The position numbers and the translations under genes are program-made. A DNA stretch of 22,919 nucleotides from a virus: IMG/VR virus record IMGVR_UViG_3300036760_000090, positions 1 through 22,919 of that record; one strand, 5' to 3'. The notes under the pieces were generated by a model. That model was not told where the DNA came from, searched no databases, and was given only the letters and a program-made list of their open reading frames with translations. The first letter of the stretch is position 1, and each line of letters starts with the position of its first letter. Shown here one piece after another: positions 13,827-22,877 of this stretch.

Positions 13827-14267
13827 CTACGCGACGGTCTGCTTCATCGACGTGGCCTGCGCCAGCGGCTGGTTGCGCGCGTCGAACGCCCGCACCTCCG
13901 CCGCGATCAGCGACGCCGCGGCGCCGACCGTGACCGACAGCCGCACAAAGGCGAAGTTGTTGTCCAACTCATCCGAGCGGCAGTTGATCTGCGCCGACTT
14001 GCCGTCGTCGGTCGCCTTCACGAGCTGCGTGATCGCCTTGCTGGTCACGTCCTTGACGCCCGTGCCAGCGGCGTCCGTGGCCTGCTGCAACTTCGCATCG
14101 ACTGTGGCCGACGCGCCGAGCACGCCGCACGAGATGACCGCGAGGATCTCGTCGACGGTCTGCATCGAGAGCCAGCCCGTGGTCACGGTGCCGGCGCCCT
14201 GCGAAATCGGGGCGATCTTGTCGTACGACACCGCCCGGTTGCTGGGGAGAGTGTTCGGATTGCTCAT
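13827..14267 (-). CDS. Conserved virion protein after capsid gene (146 aa)
   Basis: A 146-aa protein with strong ribosome binding site (AGGAGAACAG). It begins MSNPNTLPSNRAVSYDKIAP, then shows WLSMQTVDEILAVISCGVLG and later a DGKSAQINCRSDELD segment and beta-rich FAFVRLSVTVGAAAS. Genes of similar size and place, just after the major capsid gene, often encode capsid decoration or accessory proteins; nothing here proves it. No signal peptide or membrane helix. It lies after the GC-rich hairpin that follows the capsid gene. Confidence 0.7.
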   Translation of the reverse strand: MSNPNTLPSNRAVSYDKIAPISQGAGTVTTGWLSMQTVDEILAVISCGVLGASATVDAKLQQATDAAGTGVKDVTSKAITQLVKATDDGKSAQINCRSDELDNNFAFVRLSVTVGAAASLIAAEVRAFDARNQPLAQATSMKQTVA

Positions 14268-14324: not shown

Positions 14325-15686
14325 CTAGGTGGCCAACGTCACGAAGTGGCTCTTCGTGTTCGATCCCTTCGCCGGCGTCACCGCCGCGCTGAGGAACGGC
14401 TCGCCGCCGAAACGCAGCGTCCAACGGAACGCCTGCACGCCGAAGTCGAAGTACAGGTGGATCGAACTCGCGAAGCCCATGCCGCCGCTCTTCTGGGTCA
14501 GGTACATGCCTGTCGGATCCACGAGCTGCAGGTCGCCCTTCGTGCCCAGCGAGCTGGCGTGCTCCGAGAGCACCACCGGCAGGCCCATCAGGAACCCGCC
14601 CGGCGCCCCCGCGAACCCGCCCTGCGGCGGGAACCAGACGTTGTTCTGGCCGGAGGTCATCGCGTAGAGCTGCGAGATCGTGTCCATGTTGGCGATCCAG
14701 AACGCCTTCGACAGGTTCAGCGGCAGGATGCGCTTGAACACGTTCAGCACGTCCGCGACAGCGATCAGGTTCGCGCCGCTCCGGGTCACACTGATCAGCG
14801 CCGGCGAGTTCATCCAGCCGAGCGGCTGGCCCGCGCCGACACCCGACATGATCGAGTCCGACACCTTCCAGTTGATCGCCTCGGCCGCGCCGCGCGTCAG
14901 CCGCTCGTTGAGCCGCGGCGCGTCCGCGAGCAGTTCGTCCGTCGCCAGGACGAAGGCGTACAGCTCATTCAGCCGCACCTGACGGAGCCCGGTCTGCAAG
15001 CGGCTGGGCGTCATCTGCCCGCCTTCAGAGCGCCAGGCCGCCTGCACGCCCGTCGCCCCCCAGGGCGTCGATTCATCGACGATCAGCTCCACCGAGTTTG
15101 ATTCCGTCGGTTCGACGGTGAACCGGGAGATGATGTCCGACATGCCGTCGTACATCTCCCAGATCGCCTGACGGAACTCCGGCGGCACCATGTAGCCCTC
15201 GTCGGCGCCCAGCTCGCGGTTGTAGTTGGTGGGCGCGGCCATCGGGCCGCCGCCGCCATTCGCGCCGTTGAGCCGGTTCAGGCGCTCGTCGAAGCGGAAG
15301 CTGCCCCCGGCCGGGTTCGCGGCCTTCACAGCCAGGGCGAACTCCGCGAGGTTGGTGAAGCCGGCCTTCGGGTCGGCGTCGCCCAGGTCGCGGCCCACTT
15401 CGACGCCCGCGGCGCCGCGCCCGCCCTTCGGCCTGCCCACGCTGGCCGACGCCTCGGCGATGTCGCGCTTGCGCTGCGCGTCCATGCCCTCTTCGCGCTC
15501 GGCGTAGCGGCCGAGCCGCACGATCTCCGCGTCGATCGCGTCGATGCGCGCGTTGATCTCGTCGTCACGGGTCTGCTCGGCGTCGGTCAGCGCCCGGTTC
15601 TCGGTCTGTGCCGCGGTGATGGCGCCCATGCCCTCGGTGTGCAGCGCGGCGCGCTCCTTGCGAAGGGCGGCGATTCGTTCTCGCAT
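14325..15686 (-). CDS. Major capsid protein (HK97 fold)
   Basis: A 453-aa HK97-type capsid protein. Start is the ATG at 15686 with GGGAGGAAC upstream. Residues 1-75 are a charged coiled-coil delta domain (RERIAALRKERAALHTE; AEQTRDDEINARIDAIDAE), expected to act as an internal scaffold and be removed by the protease encoded just upstream. The cleavage point cannot be set. The mature part carries the family features: YMVPPEFRQAIWEMYDGMSD, EYE-type YAFVLATDELLADAP, FWIANMDTISQLYAMTS and GFLMGLPVVLSEHA, ending in the strand PFLSAAVTPAKGSNTKSHFV. It has its own promoter and leader with a terminator-like hairpin. Confidence 0.93.
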   Translation of the reverse strand: MRERIAALRKERAALHTEGMGAITAAQTENRALTDAEQTRDDEINARIDAIDAEIVRLGRYAEREEGMDAQRKRDIAEASASVGRPKGGRGAAGVEVGRDLGDADPKAGFTNLAEFALAVKAANPAGGSFRFDERLNRLNGANGGGGPMAAPTNYNRELGADEGYMVPPEFRQAIWEMYDGMSDIISRFTVEPTESNSVELIVDESTPWGATGVQAAWRSEGGQMTPSRLQTGLRQVRLNELYAFVLATDELLADAPRLNERLTRGAAEAINWKVSDSIMSGVGAGQPLGWMNSPALISVTRSGANLIAVADVLNVFKRILPLNLSKAFWIANMDTISQLYAMTSGQNNVWFPPQGGFAGAPGGFLMGLPVVLSEHASSLGTKGDLQLVDPTGMYLTQKSGGMGFASSIHLYFDFGVQAFRWTLRFGGEPFLSAAVTPAKGSNTKSHFVTLAT

Positions 15687-15856
15687 TTCCGTTCCTCCCA
15701 CGTTGTGGTGGTGCGGGGAACGCAAAAAGGGCGCGCTCAGCGCACCGGATCAATCTCCGGTGCAGCCAAGCGCGCCTCTACCGAGTCGCCTTTGCTGCGT
15801 CGCCGCCACCGCTCGGAACTCGACGGAGTCTCCGCGATGGCGACCACTAGGAATCA
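15687..15856 (-). other. Structured leader of the capsid message
   Basis: The roughly 170-base stretch between the predicted start site (near 15856) and the capsid ATG holds no ORF of note but dense potential pairing. GGTCGCC near 15843-15837 can pair with either of two GGCGAC copies (near 15806 and 15790), CGGAGACTCCG forms a small hairpin, and the terminator-like hairpin lies at 15730-15776. Its order (promoter, alternative pairing, terminator, ribosome binding site) is that of an attenuator or cis-regulatory RNA. It matches no riboswitch consensus I know. Confidence 0.45.
15724..15776 (-). terminator. Terminator-like hairpin in capsid leader
   Basis: On the minus strand GGCGCGCT (15776-15769) pairs with AGCGCGCC (15737-15730); inside is a second perfect 8-bp stem GCACCGGA/TCCGGTGC (15763-15742) with a six-base loop. 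CTTTTTGCG follows. This is the form of a strong intrinsic terminator. It ends about 40 bases before the capsid ATG, so no full promoter fits between, favouring attenuation over simple termination. Confidence 0.75.
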
Positions 15857-15862
15857 GTCGCT

Positions 15863-15891
15863 ACTCTACGCCCGGCGCATTGCGTTGTCAA
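15863..15891 (-). promoter_or_regulatory. Strong promoter-like site for capsid message
   Basis: On the minus strand TTGACA (15891-15886), a 17-base spacer, and TAGAGT (15868-15863) make a near-consensus sigma-70-type promoter. The -35 and spacer lie within the last codons of the protease gene and the -10 starts with its TAG stop. A predicted start near 15856 puts the terminator-like hairpin in the leader. Confidence 0.7.
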
Positions 15892-16822
15892 GCCGCCGCC
15901 GCCGCCGCTCCGCGTCGAAGTCGACGCCAGGGGTTGTCGCTTCCGCCATCGGCGCGTCGCCCGCGGCATCCGCCCGCGCCCCCGCGCCCTTCGTCCCCGC
16001 CAGCCGCGCGATCGTGTCCCCGAGCGTGCCCACGCGGTCCGCCATTCCCATCTTCACCGCATCCTTCGCCCCCACGATGTAGCCCTCGCCGAAGCCGCCG
16101 CGCACCTCCGACGCCTTCACGCCGCGGCCGCGCGCCACCGCATCGACGAAGAGCCCGTAGTACTGGTCGATCCGCCCCTGCATGAGCGCCCGGCCGTCCT
16201 CGGACAGCGCCTCGGCGTCGTTGCCGAGCGTCTTGTATTTGCCGGCGCTGATGTACTCGATGTTCAGGCCCATTTGCTCGTAGAACTTCGAGGCGTCGAT
16301 GTTCATCATCCAGACGCCCACCGAGCCCACCGACCCCGACGGGCTCACCACCAGCTCGTCCGCCTGCGTTGCGATCCAGTACGCCGCGCTGAAGGCGTAG
16401 CTGTCCGCCACGGCGACGATCGGCTTCGTGCCGCGCGCCTTGTAGATCACGTCGGCCAGCTCCGGCGTGCCGTAGACCTCGCCGCCCGGCGAGCAGATGT
16501 CCAGCACGATCGCGCCCACGCTCTCGTCCGCCACCAGCGCCCGGAACTGCGCGCCGATCGCCTCGGTGCTCGCCCCGCCGCCGAAGAGGTAGTCGAAGAA
16601 GTCCTGCGGCCCCTTCTGGCTCATCGGCCCGTAGACCGGCAGCACCGCCACCGACCCAGAGCGCGTCGAGCCGCCCCGTGCCGCCTCTACCGGCGCCGGC
16701 TCCCCGCCGGCCTGCGTCCGCGCCAGCGCGCGCTCCAGCGCCCCCCGCTCGATCGCCCACGGCGTCTCGCTCAGCCACGCCCCCATGCCGTTGCTCGTCT
16801 TCATGCCGTTGCTCGTCTTCAT
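15866..16822 (-). CDS. Capsid maturation protease, S49/SppA-type
   Basis: A 318-aa serine protease of the S49 family used as a phage head maturation protease. The Ser/Lys dyad can be seen: S145 in DSYAFSAAYW and K197 in SAGKYKTLG, 52 residues apart as in SppA. VLDICSPGGEVYG (107-119) forms the ClpP-like oxyanion-side loop, and SGSVGSVGVWM (162-172) follows the usual pattern. It should remove the delta domain of the capsid protein. The start ATG at 16822 has AGGAGGTCGC upstream and overlaps the portal stop as ATGA. The N-terminus is odd, MKTSNG repeated twice, from an 18-bp tandem duplication. The C-terminal tail is Arg-rich (RRRRRLDNAMRRA). Confidence 0.88.
   Translation of the reverse strand: MKTSNGMKTSNGMGAWLSETPWAIERGALERALARTQAGGEPAPVEAARGGSTRSGSVAVLPVYGPMSQKGPQDFFDYLFGGGASTEAIGAQFRALVADESVGAIVLDICSPGGEVYGTPELADVIYKARGTKPIVAVADSYAFSAAYWIATQADELVVSPSGSVGSVGVWMMNIDASKFYEQMGLNIEYISAGKYKTLGNDAEALSEDGRALMQGRIDQYYGLFVDAVARGRGVKASEVRGGFGEGYIVGAKDAVKMGMADRVGTLGDTIARLAGTKGAGARADAAGDAPMAEATTPGVDFDAERRRRRLDNAMRRA
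16784..16819. repeat. 18-bp tandem duplication at protease start
   Basis: The 18-base unit CATGCCGTTGCTCGTCTT occurs twice in a row (16784-16801 and 16802-16819) and its first six bases a third time (16820-16825). It adds MKTSNG to the N-terminus of the protease and gives three possible ATG starts (16822, 16804, 16786). Only the first has a good ribosome binding site. Confidence 0.95.
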
Positions 16823-18354
16823 GCCGCGACCTCCTCTCCCAGCGCCAGCGCCGCCAACTGCGTCACCCACGCCGGCTCGCTCTCCTCGGCCACGTGCAGC
16901 CCGCCCTCGCGGACCGCCGCCGTGTGCTCCTGACAGTACGCCGCCGCCGCCGCCTCGTCGACGTGCAGGTCCCTCACGATCTCCCCGGCGTGTTTCGCGT
17001 AGAACTCGCCCAGCCAGGCGTCCCACGCCGCGCCGTCGCCGGCGTGCTTCACCGCCGCCTTGCGCAGCGCCGTGCACTCCTTCCGCACGATGCGCGCCGC
17101 CGCGTTGCTCGCCAGCAGCTCCGCCGCGGCCGCGGCCTTCCCCGCGCCGGCGCCGGCGTCCGTGCCCTGCCCCACGCGCATATTCAGCGGCGAGAGCATC
17201 TCGTCCAGCCCCGGCAGCGCCCGCATGTTCTCCTTCTTCCGGATCTCGTTGCGCGTCATCCACGGCGCGTTCCCGCCGGCGGCGATCTGGTACGCCGCCA
17301 CCCGCGTGGCCGTGTCGGCGCGCAGGAGGCCATCGAGGTTGAACTCGGCGTAGAAGGCGTCCGAGACGATCAGGTCCCGCTGGATCGCCTGCTCCCAGCG
17401 CACCGCCCACGGCCGCAGCGTGTGCGTGACGAACATGATCATGAACTGCTCGATGCCCGTGCCCCACGTCGTCGAGCGCTCATGCTCGCCCAGCAGCGGC
17501 AGCGGGATGCCGAAGCGCCGCGCGATGTCCGCGACCTGGTACTTCCGTGTCTCCAGGAATTGGGCATCCTGCGAGGTCATGCCGACCTGCGACCACTCCA
17601 TCCCTTCCTCGAGCACGACGGTGCGGTGGGCGTTCGCCAGCCCCGAGTTCGCTTCGTTCCAGCTTGCCTTGAGGTTCGCGCGCGCCTCCGCGCTCAGCGC
17701 CTTCGGATGCTTCAGCACGCCCTTCGGGCTCGCGTCCTGAGCGAAGAACCGCGCTCCGTATTGCTCGGCCGCCATTGCGAGGCCGATGCTGTCCTTCGCC
17801 ATCTCGATCGGTGACAGCCCCTTCACCCCGTCCGACGATAGCCCGCGCAGGTGGAAGATCTCCGCTTGATCGAGGTCGTACGTGCTGCCATCGTCGCGCC
17901 GCACGTGGTAGACCACCGTCCCGTCCGGCTGCAGCGCCGGCTCGACGCGGCCAGGGTGCAGCGGGATCAGCCCCTCCGTGAACGGCGTCCCCGGCGTCAT
18001 GATCTTGCGCGAGTAGGCGTTGCCCCGGAGCACCATGTGCCCCATCATCATCTCGCGCCACTCGAAGCTGGTCTGCCAGCGGTTCGGCCGCTTCTCCAGC
18101 ACGTCCGTCAGGCCGATCACCGCCCGCTCGCGCTCCCCCGCGCCCTTGTCGATGTAGACGTGCAGCGGCGTCGAGGCGATCGACTCGGCCAGAATCCGCA
18201 CGCACGCAGCGACGATGCTCGCCCGCATCGCCGAATCCTCCGTGACCGAGATGCCCGCCACCGACCGCGGCACCCAGTTCGACCACGCCCGCGGGTCGCC
18301 CGGACTCATGTCCGCCCGCGGACGCTCCAGCATCCGCATCAGCATTCCGCTCAT
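16819..18354 (-). CDS. Portal protein (HK97 type)
   Basis: A 511-aa portal. The start is the ATG at 18354, with GAGGAAGGGGG upstream and overlapping the stop of the small membrane gene as ATGA; a frame 25 codons longer lacks support. Hallmarks are RASIVAACVRILAESIASTP (about 44-63), TDVLEKRPNRWQTSFEWREM with MMGHMVLRGNAYSRKI, IFHLRGLSSDGVKGLSPIEM, and TSQDAQFLETRKYQVADIAR with FGIPLPLLG. It forms the dodecameric ring through which DNA enters and leaves and binds the terminase. The C-terminal part after about 390 is Ala/Glu-rich and beyond the common core, and may help with head assembly. Confidence 0.92.
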   Translation of the reverse strand: MSGMLMRMLERPRADMSPGDPRAWSNWVPRSVAGISVTEDSAMRASIVAACVRILAESIASTPLHVYIDKGAGERERAVIGLTDVLEKRPNRWQTSFEWREMMMGHMVLRGNAYSRKIMTPGTPFTEGLIPLHPGRVEPALQPDGTVVYHVRRDDGSTYDLDQAEIFHLRGLSSDGVKGLSPIEMAKDSIGLAMAAEQYGARFFAQDASPKGVLKHPKALSAEARANLKASWNEANSGLANAHRTVVLEEGMEWSQVGMTSQDAQFLETRKYQVADIARRFGIPLPLLGEHERSTTWGTGIEQFMIMFVTHTLRPWAVRWEQAIQRDLIVSDAFYAEFNLDGLLRADTATRVAAYQIAAGGNAPWMTRNEIRKKENMRALPGLDEMLSPLNMRVGQGTDAGAGAGKAAAAAELLASNAAARIVRKECTALRKAAVKHAGDGAAWDAWLGEFYAKHAGEIVRDLHVDEAAAAAYCQEHTAAVREGGLHVAEESEPAWVTQLAALALGEEVAA

Positions 18355-18539: not shown

Positions 18540-20215
18540 AGGACGGTGATTCCAGCCGTCTCATACACCGACCGCCCGTCCTCGCCGTCGCGCACCATCG
18601 CTCGCCCCACGGCCATCGCCAGCGCCACCATGCCGTCCACCTTCTCGCTGCTCTTCTCCTTCGAGATCTTCAGGTTGCCGGCCGCGTCCTGCTCCACCGC
18701 CACGTTGCTGGCGTGCCACGTCAGCACCGGGTTGCCGCCGTGCCGCAGCGTCCGCGCCAGCAGTTGTCGCTCGATCTCCTTCGTCGGCGCCGCCATCGAC
18801 GCGAACCCCTGCCCGAACGGTACCACCACGAAGCCGTCGCCCATCAACTGCGTCTGCAGCTGCGTCGAGTTCCAGCGGTCGATCGCGATCTCGCGGATGT
18901 TGCACCACGCCCCCAGCTCGCGGACGCGCTCGCGGATCACGTCGTAGTCCACCACGTTGCCGTCGGTCACCTCGATGTAGCCCTCGCGCGACCACTGCTC
19001 GTACGGGATGCGGTCGTGCTTCGTCCGCGACAGCACCGTCTCCTCCGGCAGCCAGAAGTACGACAGCACGTGCCCGCCGCCATCCTCGCCGGGGAAGAAC
19101 AGCTCGAGCGCCGTCATGTCCGACGTGCTGGAGAGGTCGAGCCCGGCGTAGCACGGCCGGCCCGCCAGCGTCTGCGGGTCGAAGGTTTCCCCGCCCTCGT
19201 TCCAAAGGTCCATGTCGATCCAGCGGTTCGCCTGCTGCGTCCAGACGTTCAGGTGCAGCCGCAGCACGGCGTTCTGTTGCCCCGGCACGAGCTTCGCCCG
19301 CTCCACCTTGCGCGCGATGTCCTCAACCTTCACCGACACGCCCAGGTTCGGGTTCGCCTTCACCCAGACCGCCGGGTCCGTCCAGTCGTCTTCCTCGTCG
19401 ATCGTCGCGATGTACACGAAAAACGAGTCATCCTCGATCGTCCCTTCGAGCACCTTGATGCCGTAATCGTGCTGCTCCCAACAGACGGTATTACGGTCGT
19501 AGCCGGCCGTGGTGATCACAAACGTCATCGGCTGCCGGCGCGAGGCTGTCGCCGTATCCAACACATCCCAGACGGCGCGAGTCTTGTGCGCGTGCAGCTC
19601 GTCGATGATGCAGCCGGCCATGTTGAGGCCGTCCATGCTGTCGGCGTCCGCGCCCAACGGCTCGAACTTCGAGTTCGACGCCTCGCTATGCAGATTGGCG
19701 ACGAACGATTGCACGTCCTTGCGCAGGAATGGCGACGCCTTCACCATCCGCGCCGCCTCGCCCCAGACGATCTTCGCCTGGTCGCGCTTCACGGCCGCCG
19801 CGTACACCTCGGCACCGGGCTCGCCGTCGAAGAAGGCGAGCTGTAGGCCGACGCCAGACGCTAAAAAGCTCTTGCCGTTCTTGCGCCCCAGCTCGGTGTA
19901 TGAGATGCGATAGCGGCGCGTACCGTCGGCGCGCATCCAGCCGAAGAGCGACCCGATGATGAACTCTTCCCACGGCTCCAAGCGCACCGGCGTGTTCGCC
20001 CACTCGCCCTTCGAGTGCTGGACGAAGCCGAAGAAACTGATCGCTTTGGCCGCTGCCCTGTCATCAAAGCGCAGGCCGCGGTCGGCACCCGTCTCGACGT
20101 CGCGCATGTGCCGCTGGACCGCCAGCCGTACCAGCCGGCCGGTGACGATCTCACCCGCCAGCACGCGCTCCGCGTAGGCCGTCACCGGGCTCATCGTTCT
20201 AGTTAGAGTGGGCAT
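18536..20215 (-). CDS. terL: Terminase large subunit
   Basis: The 559-aa motor and nuclease that packages DNA through the portal. The ATG at 20215 has GGAAGAGGG upstream and overlaps the end of the upstream gene by 17 bases; an ATG at 20194 is possible. Motifs: Walker A-like GRKNGKS (110-116), Walker B CIIDELHAH (202-210), coupling motif VITTAGYD (233-240), and a RNase H-type nuclease with D360 (AGLDLSS), D446 (AIDRW) and D527 (KVDGM). The combination GRKNGKS and IIDE with HAHK fits the HK97-type TerL clade. No intein or break is visible. Confidence 0.93.
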   Translation of the reverse strand: MPTLTRTMSPVTAYAERVLAGEIVTGRLVRLAVQRHMRDVETGADRGLRFDDRAAAKAISFFGFVQHSKGEWANTPVRLEPWEEFIIGSLFGWMRADGTRRYRISYTELGRKNGKSFLASGVGLQLAFFDGEPGAEVYAAAVKRDQAKIVWGEAARMVKASPFLRKDVQSFVANLHSEASNSKFEPLGADADSMDGLNMAGCIIDELHAHKTRAVWDVLDTATASRRQPMTFVITTAGYDRNTVCWEQHDYGIKVLEGTIEDDSFFVYIATIDEEDDWTDPAVWVKANPNLGVSVKVEDIARKVERAKLVPGQQNAVLRLHLNVWTQQANRWIDMDLWNEGGETFDPQTLAGRPCYAGLDLSSTSDMTALELFFPGEDGGGHVLSYFWLPEETVLSRTKHDRIPYEQWSREGYIEVTDGNVVDYDVIRERVRELGAWCNIREIAIDRWNSTQLQTQLMGDGFVVVPFGQGFASMAAPTKEIERQLLARTLRHGGNPVLTWHASNVAVEQDAAGNLKISKEKSSEKVDGMVALAMAVGRAMVRDGEDGRSVYETAGITVL

Positions 20216-20939
20216 CGCGCTCGGCCCTCTTCCGCTCGTAATATAGGTCGATCCTCTTTTGTTCCTCCACTGCGAGGCTCCGCTGTGCCCATGCTTCAGC
20301 CGACTGGTCATATTGCGCCTTGCGCCTCGCCCGATCTTTCTCTTCCTCCACATCATCCACGAACATAAGGCATCGCATCGATTCGGCACGCCGCAGCTTC
20401 TTGAGCGCCTGCTCCGCGATCTGGTGCGCCCGCTCGCGCGTGACACCGAGCTCGTTGCCGATGATGTCGAGCGTGCGCGGACGTCCGTCCTTGATGCCGA
20501 ACCGCAGCTCGATGACGGTGCGCTCGCGTGGTGTCAGTACGTCCAGGGCGTTACGGACGCGCTCGCGCAGGAGCTGCCGGTTGGCTTCTGTTTCATAGGG
20601 CACAATCACGCCATCGGAAAGCATCATGTCGGGCGCGAATGTCCCGCCGCGACGCAGCTCACGAAGCTCGACCGGGAAGAGTCGCGATGCCTCGTCAAAG
20701 AGCGCAGTCGCGATCTGTTCCATCGCCTCGACAGAAGGCCGACGGCGGAATGTTTCGATATCACGCAATTGGCTGAAGCTCATCCCAATGGAATCTGCAA
20801 GTTGGCGCTGTGTGTACCCGCACGCCTCGCGCCGCTTCCGCATCCGCCAATTATAGAGACTCACCCGCGCCCCGATTAAAGGCTCATGCCCGCGCGGCTC
20901 GTCAGGTGGCAATTTCACAATCGGCGCCGCCGTCACCAT
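20199..20939 (-). CDS. XRE-type HTH fused to sigma-70 region 4
   Basis: A 246-aa putative transcription factor with an unusual architecture. Residues about 29-85 are an XRE/Cro-type helix-turn-helix (RMRKRREACGYTQRQLADSI, GMSFSQLRDIE). Residues about 135-184 match sigma-70 region 4: LTPRERTVIELRFGIKDG and GVTRERAHQIAEQALKKLRR, very close to the RpoD pattern. Region 2, needed for -10 recognition and main core binding, is absent. The last 50 residues are charged and helical. It lies between the terminase genes, starts three bases after the upstream stop, and overlaps the terminase start. A late-gene activator that binds DNA by XRE and core polymerase or a -35 box by region 4 is inferred. Confidence 0.8.
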   Translation of the reverse strand: MVTAAPIVKLPPDEPRGHEPLIGARVSLYNWRMRKRREACGYTQRQLADSIGMSFSQLRDIETFRRRPSVEAMEQIATALFDEASRLFPVELRELRRGGTFAPDMMLSDGVIVPYETEANRQLLRERVRNALDVLTPRERTVIELRFGIKDGRPRTLDIIGNELGVTRERAHQIAEQALKKLRRAESMRCLMFVDDVEEEKDRARRKAQYDQSAEAWAQRSLAVEEQKRIDLYYERKRAERDAHSN

Positions 20940-21649: not shown

Positions 21650-22877
21650 GGTGTGCCTCTCTTCCAGTGAACTGCTCCCATCGCCGCACGGCAACGTCAA
21701 CGTACTTGGGCTCGATCTCCATCGCGTAGCAGCGGCGCCCCAGGCGCTCGCAGGCGATCAGCGTCGTGCCGGAGCCGAGGAAGGGGTCGTAGACGACGTG
21801 CCCCACGTCAGATGAATTGGTGACGGCGCGCTCCACAAGTTCGACCGGCTTCATCGTGGGGTGCTCCGGCGACTTCGAGGGGCGGTCGATGTTCCAGACC
21901 GTCGTCTGCTGGCGCCCGCCGCGATAGCGATGTGCGGCGTTCGGAACCCACCCGTAGAAGATCGGCTCGGCCTGCCAGTGGTAATCGACACCCATCGGCG
22001 AGAACGTCGCGTTGTTCTTCACCCACTGGATCGTCTGGTGCCAGATGCCGCGCTCCTTGAGCGCGAGCCCGAAGAGGACATGTAGCGGCCCCGCCGGTGC
22101 CGCTACATACCACGCGGCCCCGGCGGTGCATGAGGCGAGCGCCAGATCGAACGATGCACAGAGCATCGCCATCAGCGCGGGTTCCCCGAGGGTGTCGCCC
22201 GTGAGGTTCTTCTCAACTCGATTGCACCGAGCAATCGAGTTGAGAAACTTGTTCTTGTCGCCCACAGACACGCCATATGGCGGATCAGTCCAGACAAGTT
22301 CGATCGTTGCCCCGTCCATCAGCCGCCCGACATCCTCACCCTTCGTCGAGTCCCCGCAGAGCAGCCGGTGCTCGCCCAGCAGCCACAGGTCGCCCGTCTT
22401 GCTGGTCGGCTCCACCACGGCAGGCACGTCGTCGGGGTCGGTGAGGCCGTCCTTCACGCCGACCGGCTGTAGCATCGCCCGCAGATCGGCGTCCGACACG
22501 CTGATCTCGGCCAGTAGTTCGTTCCACTTCTCCGGGTCTTGCACGGCCATCGCCGCCAGCGGGTCGAGCGACGCCAGCGCGATCCGCTCCTCGTTCTCGT
22601 CCAGGTCGACGTAGACCACCGGCACCGTCGGCTCCTCGCGGCTGATCGCCAGCGCGATCCGCGCGTGCCCGTCAATCACGTGCCCCGTCCGCTGGTTGAC
22701 GATCACCCGCTGAATCCAGCCGATCTCGTTGAGGGCTCCAGTTAGGGCGTCCTGTTGGGCTTTTGGATGAATCCGAAAATTGAAGGGGTTGGCTAGGAGT
22801 TGATCGGGCGCCTCTTCCCCATCGCCGACGATGCGGCTGCGCCAGGCGGCGGGCGCGGCGGGCTTAGCCTTGGGCAT
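21489..22877 (-). CDS. ParB-like domain fused to DNA methyltransferase
   Basis: A 462-aa fusion starting at the ATG at 22877 (AGGGGGAG upstream). Residues about 25-135 are a ParB/Srx-like domain with HVIDGHARIALAIS and VVYVDLDENEERIALASLDP. Residues about 160-402 are a beta-class amino methyltransferase: catalytic DPPY (198-201) precedes HPTMKPVEL (339-347) and the SAM-binding DPFLGSGTT (364-372). Such phage enzymes methylate adenine N6 (or cytosine N4) and may protect phage DNA from host restriction or mark packaging sites. No restriction partner is seen. The last 60 residues are low-complexity and overlap the terS gene in another frame, so the C-terminus may be non-conserved. A 16-bp hairpin lies in codons 211-223. 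Confidence 0.85.
   Translation of the reverse strand: MPKAKPAAPAAWRSRIVGDGEEAPDQLLANPFNFRIHPKAQQDALTGALNEIGWIQRVIVNQRTGHVIDGHARIALAISREEPTVPVVYVDLDENEERIALASLDPLAAMAVQDPEKWNELLAEISVSDADLRAMLQPVGVKDGLTDPDDVPAVVEPTSKTGDLWLLGEHRLLCGDSTKGEDVGRLMDGATIELVWTDPPYGVSVGDKNKFLNSIARCNRVEKNLTGDTLGEPALMAMLCASFDLALASCTAGAAWYVAAPAGPLHVLFGLALKERGIWHQTIQWVKNNATFSPMGVDYHWQAEPIFYGWVPNAAHRYRGGRQQTTVWNIDRPSKSPEHPTMKPVELVERAVTNSSDVGHVVYDPFLGSGTTLIACERLGRRCYAMEIEPKYVDVAVRRWEQFTGREAHREGPEAGADESARAARQPVETRPANARGKAGGQAAARAQAPQRRGAARVAADG
22210..22246. repeat. Perfect 16-bp inverted repeat inside methyltransferase gene
   Basis: TTCTCAACTCGATTGC (22210-22225) and its exact complement (22231-22246) flank a five-base loop ACCGA. 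The arms encode residues 211-223 of the methyltransferase (FLNSIARCNRVEK). The arms are about half A+T, lower in GC than the surrounding sequence. No T-run follows on either strand, so it is not a standard terminator. Confidence 0.95.

Follow-up and report, generated by a model that had tools for sequence, protein, structure and literature searches.

In the BglG/LicT systems, a protein-read RNA hairpin (the RAT) overlaps the 5' arm of a terminator in a sugar operon, and binding of the protein leads to readthrough. The trp and his attenuators also have competing hairpins, together with a leader peptide. Among phage systems, the λ nut site has a single boxB per site, which does not overlap a terminator, and its loop is read by a phage-specific protein, N; the specificity of boxB loops and of N changes with the phage. 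λ Q binds DNA at the late promoter. In the late leader of λ, the promoter pR' is followed within about 200 nt by the terminator tR', ahead of the late genes (PMC6606751). The put element of phage HK022 is about 70 nt long and consists of two stem-loops; it lies in the early operons and acts through RNA polymerase alone (PMC9378689). Here we describe a leader upstream of a phage capsid gene that shares features with each of these systems; no description of such a capsid leader was found in the set of papers searched.

Few late products of a tailed phage are as abundant as the capsid protein, whose dose relative to the portal and protease is often ascribed to promoter strength or translation. 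The window, by which we mean the whole 22.9-kb virus record analyzed here (IMGVR_UViG_3300036760_000090), carries on its minus strand the genes for the large terminase, the portal, an S49 head protease and an HK97-like capsid, and then connector-type genes. The leader lies on the same strand between the protease and capsid genes. The major capsid gene (PF05065, phrog_10) occupies 14325..15686, with its ATG at 15686-15684 and, by inspection, a Shine-Dalgarno sequence GGGAGGAA at 15692..15699. The maximal frame of the head maturation protease spans 15866..17467 (minus strand); translation probably begins near 16.8 kb, since no match covers the N-terminal portion of this frame. Directly 3' of the capsid gene is a phrog_28483 gene of unknown function (13827-14267, minus strand, 146 aa), which is present in all 19 class-1 records examined (those with a window-type leader) and also in Bradyrhizobium phage ppBdUSDA122-1. 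A protein with HTH_3 and sigma-70 region 4 domains is encoded at 20202-20939 (minus strand), overlapping the start of the maximal large-terminase ORF, and is possibly a late transcription activator. Near the record end, on the plus strand, is a 16-pair inverted repeat, TTCTCAACTCGATTGC-ACCGA-GCAATCGAGTTGAGAA (22210-22246).

The initial annotation placed a near-consensus promoter in the last codons of the protease gene. Indeed, TTGACA-N17-TAGAGT is present at 15891-15863 on the minus strand, where the -35 hexamer TTGACA (15886..15891) can be read in the sequence and the -10 hexamer TAGAGT (15863..15868) contributes its TAG as the protease stop codon. This is the sole match of at least 9/12 in the 12.9 kb scanned. 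Taken alone, however, the motif is weak evidence, because 0.9 such sites are expected by chance in that region. The evidence becomes strong because the position is conserved across capsid loci. In the 70 nt upstream of each leader, TTGAC[AG] is present at 11 of the 19 loci, always 30-50 nt before the leader start, and the other eight lack it. Under random placement the mean is 0.40 loci, and none of 20,000 draws exceeded 4.

The leader that follows is predicted to be highly structured. The 169-nt sequence folds at -91.1 kcal/mol (z = -5.07), with 0 of 200 shuffles as stable, and a 139-nt piece of it reaches z = -5.8, a stability found in only 2 of 375 equal-length segments of the same strand. 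The first hairpin of the fold, H1 (15799..15847, minus strand; z = -2.9 for the region), is a long imperfect stem with an apical CUC-CGUC-GAG at 15828-15819. A linker, ACGCAG (15795..15800), has 2 nt in common with the base of H1 and is followed by H2 (15772..15789), a candidate antiterminator with an apical CUC-GGUA-GAG at 15785-15776 above a lower stem of GCG/CGC with a mismatched G. Next comes a two-part terminator hairpin (15731..15775), with an 11-bp outer stem, an unpaired U and an 8-bp inner stem; it reads GCGCGCTTGGC-T-GCACCGGA-GATTGA-TCCGGTGC-GCTGAGCGCGC from 15775 to 15731, then CC and a T5 tract (15724..15728). The two-part hairpin and T5 described in the initial annotation are thus present at 15775-15724, ending 37 nt before the capsid ATG, and its statement that no promoter follows the terminator also holds, since these 37 nt leave no room for another. 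A G+C-rich stem followed by a U tract is the arrangement of an intrinsic terminator; it is kept in the relatives described below, and release of the transcript is predicted.

Closer inspection revealed two features that had been missed, namely that H1 and H2 are a matched pair and that H2 overlaps the terminator. The 3' arm of H2 is the start of the terminator 5' arm, and because of this shared arm the two hairpins compete. In the window the overlap is only 4 nt (15775-15772), where the lower stem of H2 and its mismatched G coincide with the foot of the terminator stem, close to the U tract; an automatic hairpin search gave overlaps of 7 to 11 nt in eight leaders. At about -8 kcal/mol, H2 is far weaker than the terminator in the window, and H2 and terminator together score z = -6.3. 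An alternative hairpin that uses bases of the terminator stem is required of an attenuator, and a candidate antiterminator hairpin that overlaps the terminator is the arrangement of a RAT; here, the protein that would bind it is a prediction. Other alternative pairings had been suggested, between GGTCGCC (15845-15839) and two copies of GGCGAC (15804-15799 and 15790-15785). All three segments exist, and the first GGCGAC copy is part of the H1 stem, but relatives show no evident pairing with the second copy. Ribosome-mediated attenuation of the trp type can be ruled out: there is no ATG in the window leader, and the 19 leaders have no start preceded by a Shine-Dalgarno sequence in common and no conserved leader ORF. 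In this respect the locus differs from trp and his, which resemble it in having hairpins that compete and a spacing suggestive of a pause.

Searches of viral and genome collections with a single capsid sequence recovered no relatives, and profile queries were needed; these led to about 200 distinct capsid leaders. The phage collection yielded no isolate with a leader of the window type. Besides the window, 18 of them keep the layout of promoter region, H1, ACRCA linker, H2 and terminator (L005, L006, L011, L014, L023, L028, L032, L033, L038, L040, L044, L049, L058, L095, L100, L112, L113, and L164); H2 is not clear in L014 and L058. L272 is probably one more member; it has a TTGACA-N17-TAAACT promoter, loops of another type and two hairpin-terminator units in succession. 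The linker ACRCA is found in 12 of 17 unique members. H2 is small in the relatives, typically with CUC/UUC, a four-base loop and GAG/GAA, and often a one-base bulge on the 3' side before the lower stem. Most of the two-part hairpins fall between -34 and -55 kcal/mol and are followed by a T-rich tract, a Shine-Dalgarno sequence and, a few tens of nucleotides on, the ATG. The U tract is poor, with at most three T in the first eight positions, in 6 of 17 leaders (L100, L040, L011, L023, L113, and L164), so that in about a third of the members termination may be weak. Such tracts leave room for weak or conditional termination.

Conservation of the hairpin in relatives had been named as a check on the initial annotation, and the result strongly favors it: the layout recurs in very divergent phages. 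Capsid identity to the window is about 45 to 58% for the members aligned. Leader sequences have drifted far apart but keep the fold, and 18 of 20 leaders, counting a second copy described below, beat all 200 dinucleotide shuffles. Stem sequences of H1 diverge freely. For the terminator stem, taken together with its A/U extension, pairing is kept in 87% of cells, and 7 of 10 pairs show double changes. The covariation score of this stem is 0.337, versus 0.173 when shuffled (0/500) and at most 0.163 when slid; over the H2 and terminator columns together it is 0.329 versus 0.185 (0/500). Judged by sequence comparison with relatives at this level of capsid identity, the layout is not due to chance.

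A covariance model of the linker, H2 and terminator was scanned over 0.83 Mb, and all matches at E below 0.03 were capsid leaders. Two of these were outside the set from which the model was built: L032 (E 0.0023) and L164, on a Rokuibacteriota MAG contig (E 0.013). L321, a second weak match in the L164 genome, looks like chance. A chromosomal origin was also considered, and 95 genomes of the L164 phylum gave no match, in a search where the known positive scores only E 0.06, too weak for that result to be informative. Rfam 15 gave no match over the window leader at E <= 5, or over the L006, L038 and L113 leaders at E <= 2, and an Rfam search with the window and seven relatives found nothing over the leaders. 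The phage of L028 has a second copy (E 1e-8 in a whole-record scan), which precedes a phrog_644 gene and a tail-fiber-like gene and has an identical 20-nt block at the promoter. The element can therefore stand apart from the capsid coding sequence.

The apical loops of H1 and H2 are alike within a leader: the matching score is 10.33, versus 4.27 when loops are permuted (0/20,000). The result holds when near-duplicate lineages are removed and when only tetraloops are considered (P = 6e-5), and there are four identical pairs (P = 8e-4); some H2 apical stems in this test were assigned by eye. The pairs include CGAC/CGAC, CGAA/CGAA, CGAT/CGAT, CUUC/CUUC, CAUA/CAUC and UGA/AGA, among others, and differ between lineages. 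The simplest reading, by analogy with boxB and N, is that one factor recognizes both hairpins, with a specificity that drifts with the phage. Indeed, matched, lineage-specific loops strongly predict an RNA-binding partner. A DNA operator, with CTC-N4-GAG as a dimer site, is less likely, given that the lower stems are long and form pairs as RNA, that H2 and the terminator are in competition, and that the matching of loop letters holds in one orientation.

Downstream of H2, a C-U-G in the terminator 5' arm (15763..15765, minus strand) places its U 12 nt after the H2 apical stem, a spacing that we read as pause-like. Y-U-G with the U 10 to 12 nt after this stem occurs in 13 of 17 leaders; other offsets, beyond the immediate neighborhood, reach at most four. 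Hairpin-stabilized pauses such as that of his have the same spacing, and by this analogy we predict a pause after H2.

Together these features lead us to favor, tentatively, a factor-gated attenuator of late virion genes. Transcription would begin from the promoter at the 3' end of the protease gene and yield a leader with H1 and H2, whose matching apical loops would be read by the same RNA-binding factor. With no factor bound, the far more stable terminator would form, and most transcripts, about 130 nt long, would end near 15724. If the factor were bound, H2 would be held, the base of the terminator beside the U tract could not close, and polymerase would read through into the capsid and downstream genes; the Y-U-G pause 10 to 12 nt after H2 would give the factor time to bind. 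The initial annotation had called the locus a probable attenuator. Promoter, leader structure and terminator do recur before divergent capsids, with H2 placed as the terminator's alternative; control of readthrough itself is what the sequences suggest. Comparison among the leaders gives the promoter position, the H1/H2/terminator layout, the covariation, the shared arm and the matching loops, and we infer that a factor exists and what it is, that there is a pause, and in which direction control acts. The design differs from a RAT in standing before a phage late gene rather than a sugar operon, and in having two matched hairpins with lineage-specific tetraloops. It resembles λ pR'-tR' in its promoter and terminator ahead of late genes, but the conserved features are RNA hairpins, whereas Q binds DNA.

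Because loop identity changes from lineage to lineage, the factor is probably phage encoded. The genes most widely common to class-1 records are those of the head, portal, terminase and connector; a search for a gene both specific to class 1 and common to all class-1 records, several of which are fragments, gave no factor candidate. The HTH/sigma-region-4 protein at 20202-20939 is an unlikely reader because it is absent from the widely shared gene families.

An unlikely alternative is that H1 and H2 load a factor onto polymerase, as boxB does for λ N, making it resistant to terminators across the late operon; the adjacent terminator would then merely filter out unmodified polymerases. Matched loops that change by lineage would be expected of such a site, as would its position near a promoter and ahead of a long late operon, and the second copy in the L028 phage also stands ahead of a late gene, the tail-fiber-like one. 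However, processive antitermination does not need H2 to overlap the terminator 5' arm, and the ACRCA linker is unlike boxA by eye. In the nut system the loop is read by a phage-specific protein; for the matched, lineage-specific loops described here, such a partner is predicted, and clustering of shared genes gave none.

We consider it less likely still that H1, linker and H2 contact RNA polymerase and suppress termination with no trans factor. Two hairpins also stand close to a promoter, with terminators downstream, in the put RNA of phage HK022 (PMC9378689). Yet loops that are lineage specific and match each other point to a specific reader and not to a conserved polymerase surface, and the model gives nothing convincing in HK022: with filters off, the best match of the R1 model (linker, H2, terminator) to that genome has E 2.1, which argues against membership in the put family. 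The HK022 capsid gene, gene 5, starts 2 nt after the protease gene and has no leader.

Equally doubtful is an unregulated element, in which the terminator ends terminase-portal-protease transcripts, the amount of capsid follows from a fixed partial readthrough and the hairpins shield its mRNA. The terminator does come directly after the protease gene, very stable hairpins lie near the capsid start, and hairpins like intrinsic terminators are found in other capsid leaders. An insulator of this kind does not account for a conserved promoter upstream of the terminator instead of downstream, and leaves the matched loops and the shared arm unexplained.

The position before the capsid gene could also suggest feedback, with the two hairpins serving, like the coat operator of RNA phages, as the binding site through which capsid protein or some other head protein adjusts its own mRNA. 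Reduced twin-hairpin leaders with no obvious terminator stand before other capsid genes (L235, L244, and L116), and head and packaging genes are those common to all or nearly all class-1 records. We nevertheless judge this very improbable. The second copy precedes a tail-fiber-like gene, and because of this a role in late-gene regulation fits better than capsid autoregulation; moreover, the gene directly 3' of the capsid gene also occurs in a phage with a pseudoknot leader instead. Finally, λ 6S RNA is the terminated leader of the λ late promoter, and a promoter of its own, a stable fold and a strong terminator would suit a phage small RNA of about 130 nt, but the free divergence of H1 stem sequences and the location of all clear members directly before a virion gene make this the most improbable reading of all.

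If the factor-gated reading is correct, the capsid gene would be immediately preceded by a conserved conditional terminator, which would make a clear and testable control point. More broadly, and with somewhat greater reserve, we propose that these leaders may constitute a phage RNA family that has not been described before, a readthrough switch of twin hairpins linked to a promoter, which stands ahead of the capsid gene and one or more other virion genes and is read by an RNA-binding factor that is lineage specific and co-evolves with it, and that capsid genes of the HK97-like superfamily may commonly be under the control of structured RNA leaders, the designs of which are several and unrelated (twin hairpin with terminator, H-type pseudoknot, and hairpin with U tract). 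RNA control of capsid dose would then be a general, overlooked feature. Other structured capsid leaders, including a widespread pseudoknot, suggest such a general theme.

Other capsid leaders of the superfamily are indeed often structured, by different designs. An H-type pseudoknot was found within the 95 nt upstream of the capsid gene in 32 of 197 leaders, versus 0.8 in shuffles (L002, L046, L048, L050, L052, L059-L061, L068-L070, L089, L118, L130, L131, L138, L151, L152, and L294, among others). A stretch immediately 5' of the Shine-Dalgarno sequence pairs with the S1 loop, which often resembles GCCGGGG, and the stems vary while the pairing is kept; the representatives L072, L130, and L131 had no Rfam match. 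Capsid leaders of Sphingomonas-type prophages have a hairpin like an intrinsic terminator with a U tract, then GGGCGCACGCGCCC and then a Shine-Dalgarno sequence (L102, L104, L139, L144, L146, L185, L253, L256, L259, L304, and L305). A terminator-like hairpin directly ahead of a capsid gene is consequently less unusual than the initial annotation had held. A reduced form has two short GGCUC-CGNN-GAGCC-like hairpins before the capsid gene, mostly with no obvious terminator (the three leaders named above and L088, L201, and L039), in phages of varied hosts that include a Chloroflexota MAG (L116). Tandem hairpins with a CCGAG loop precede the capsid gene in L204, L211, L222, L271, and L272. Repeated hairpins with GUGA/UUGA-type loops (CCGUC-GUGA-GACGG) do so in L082, L084, L165, L168, L175, and L186, which include Bradyrhizobium and Hyphomicrobiales genomes.
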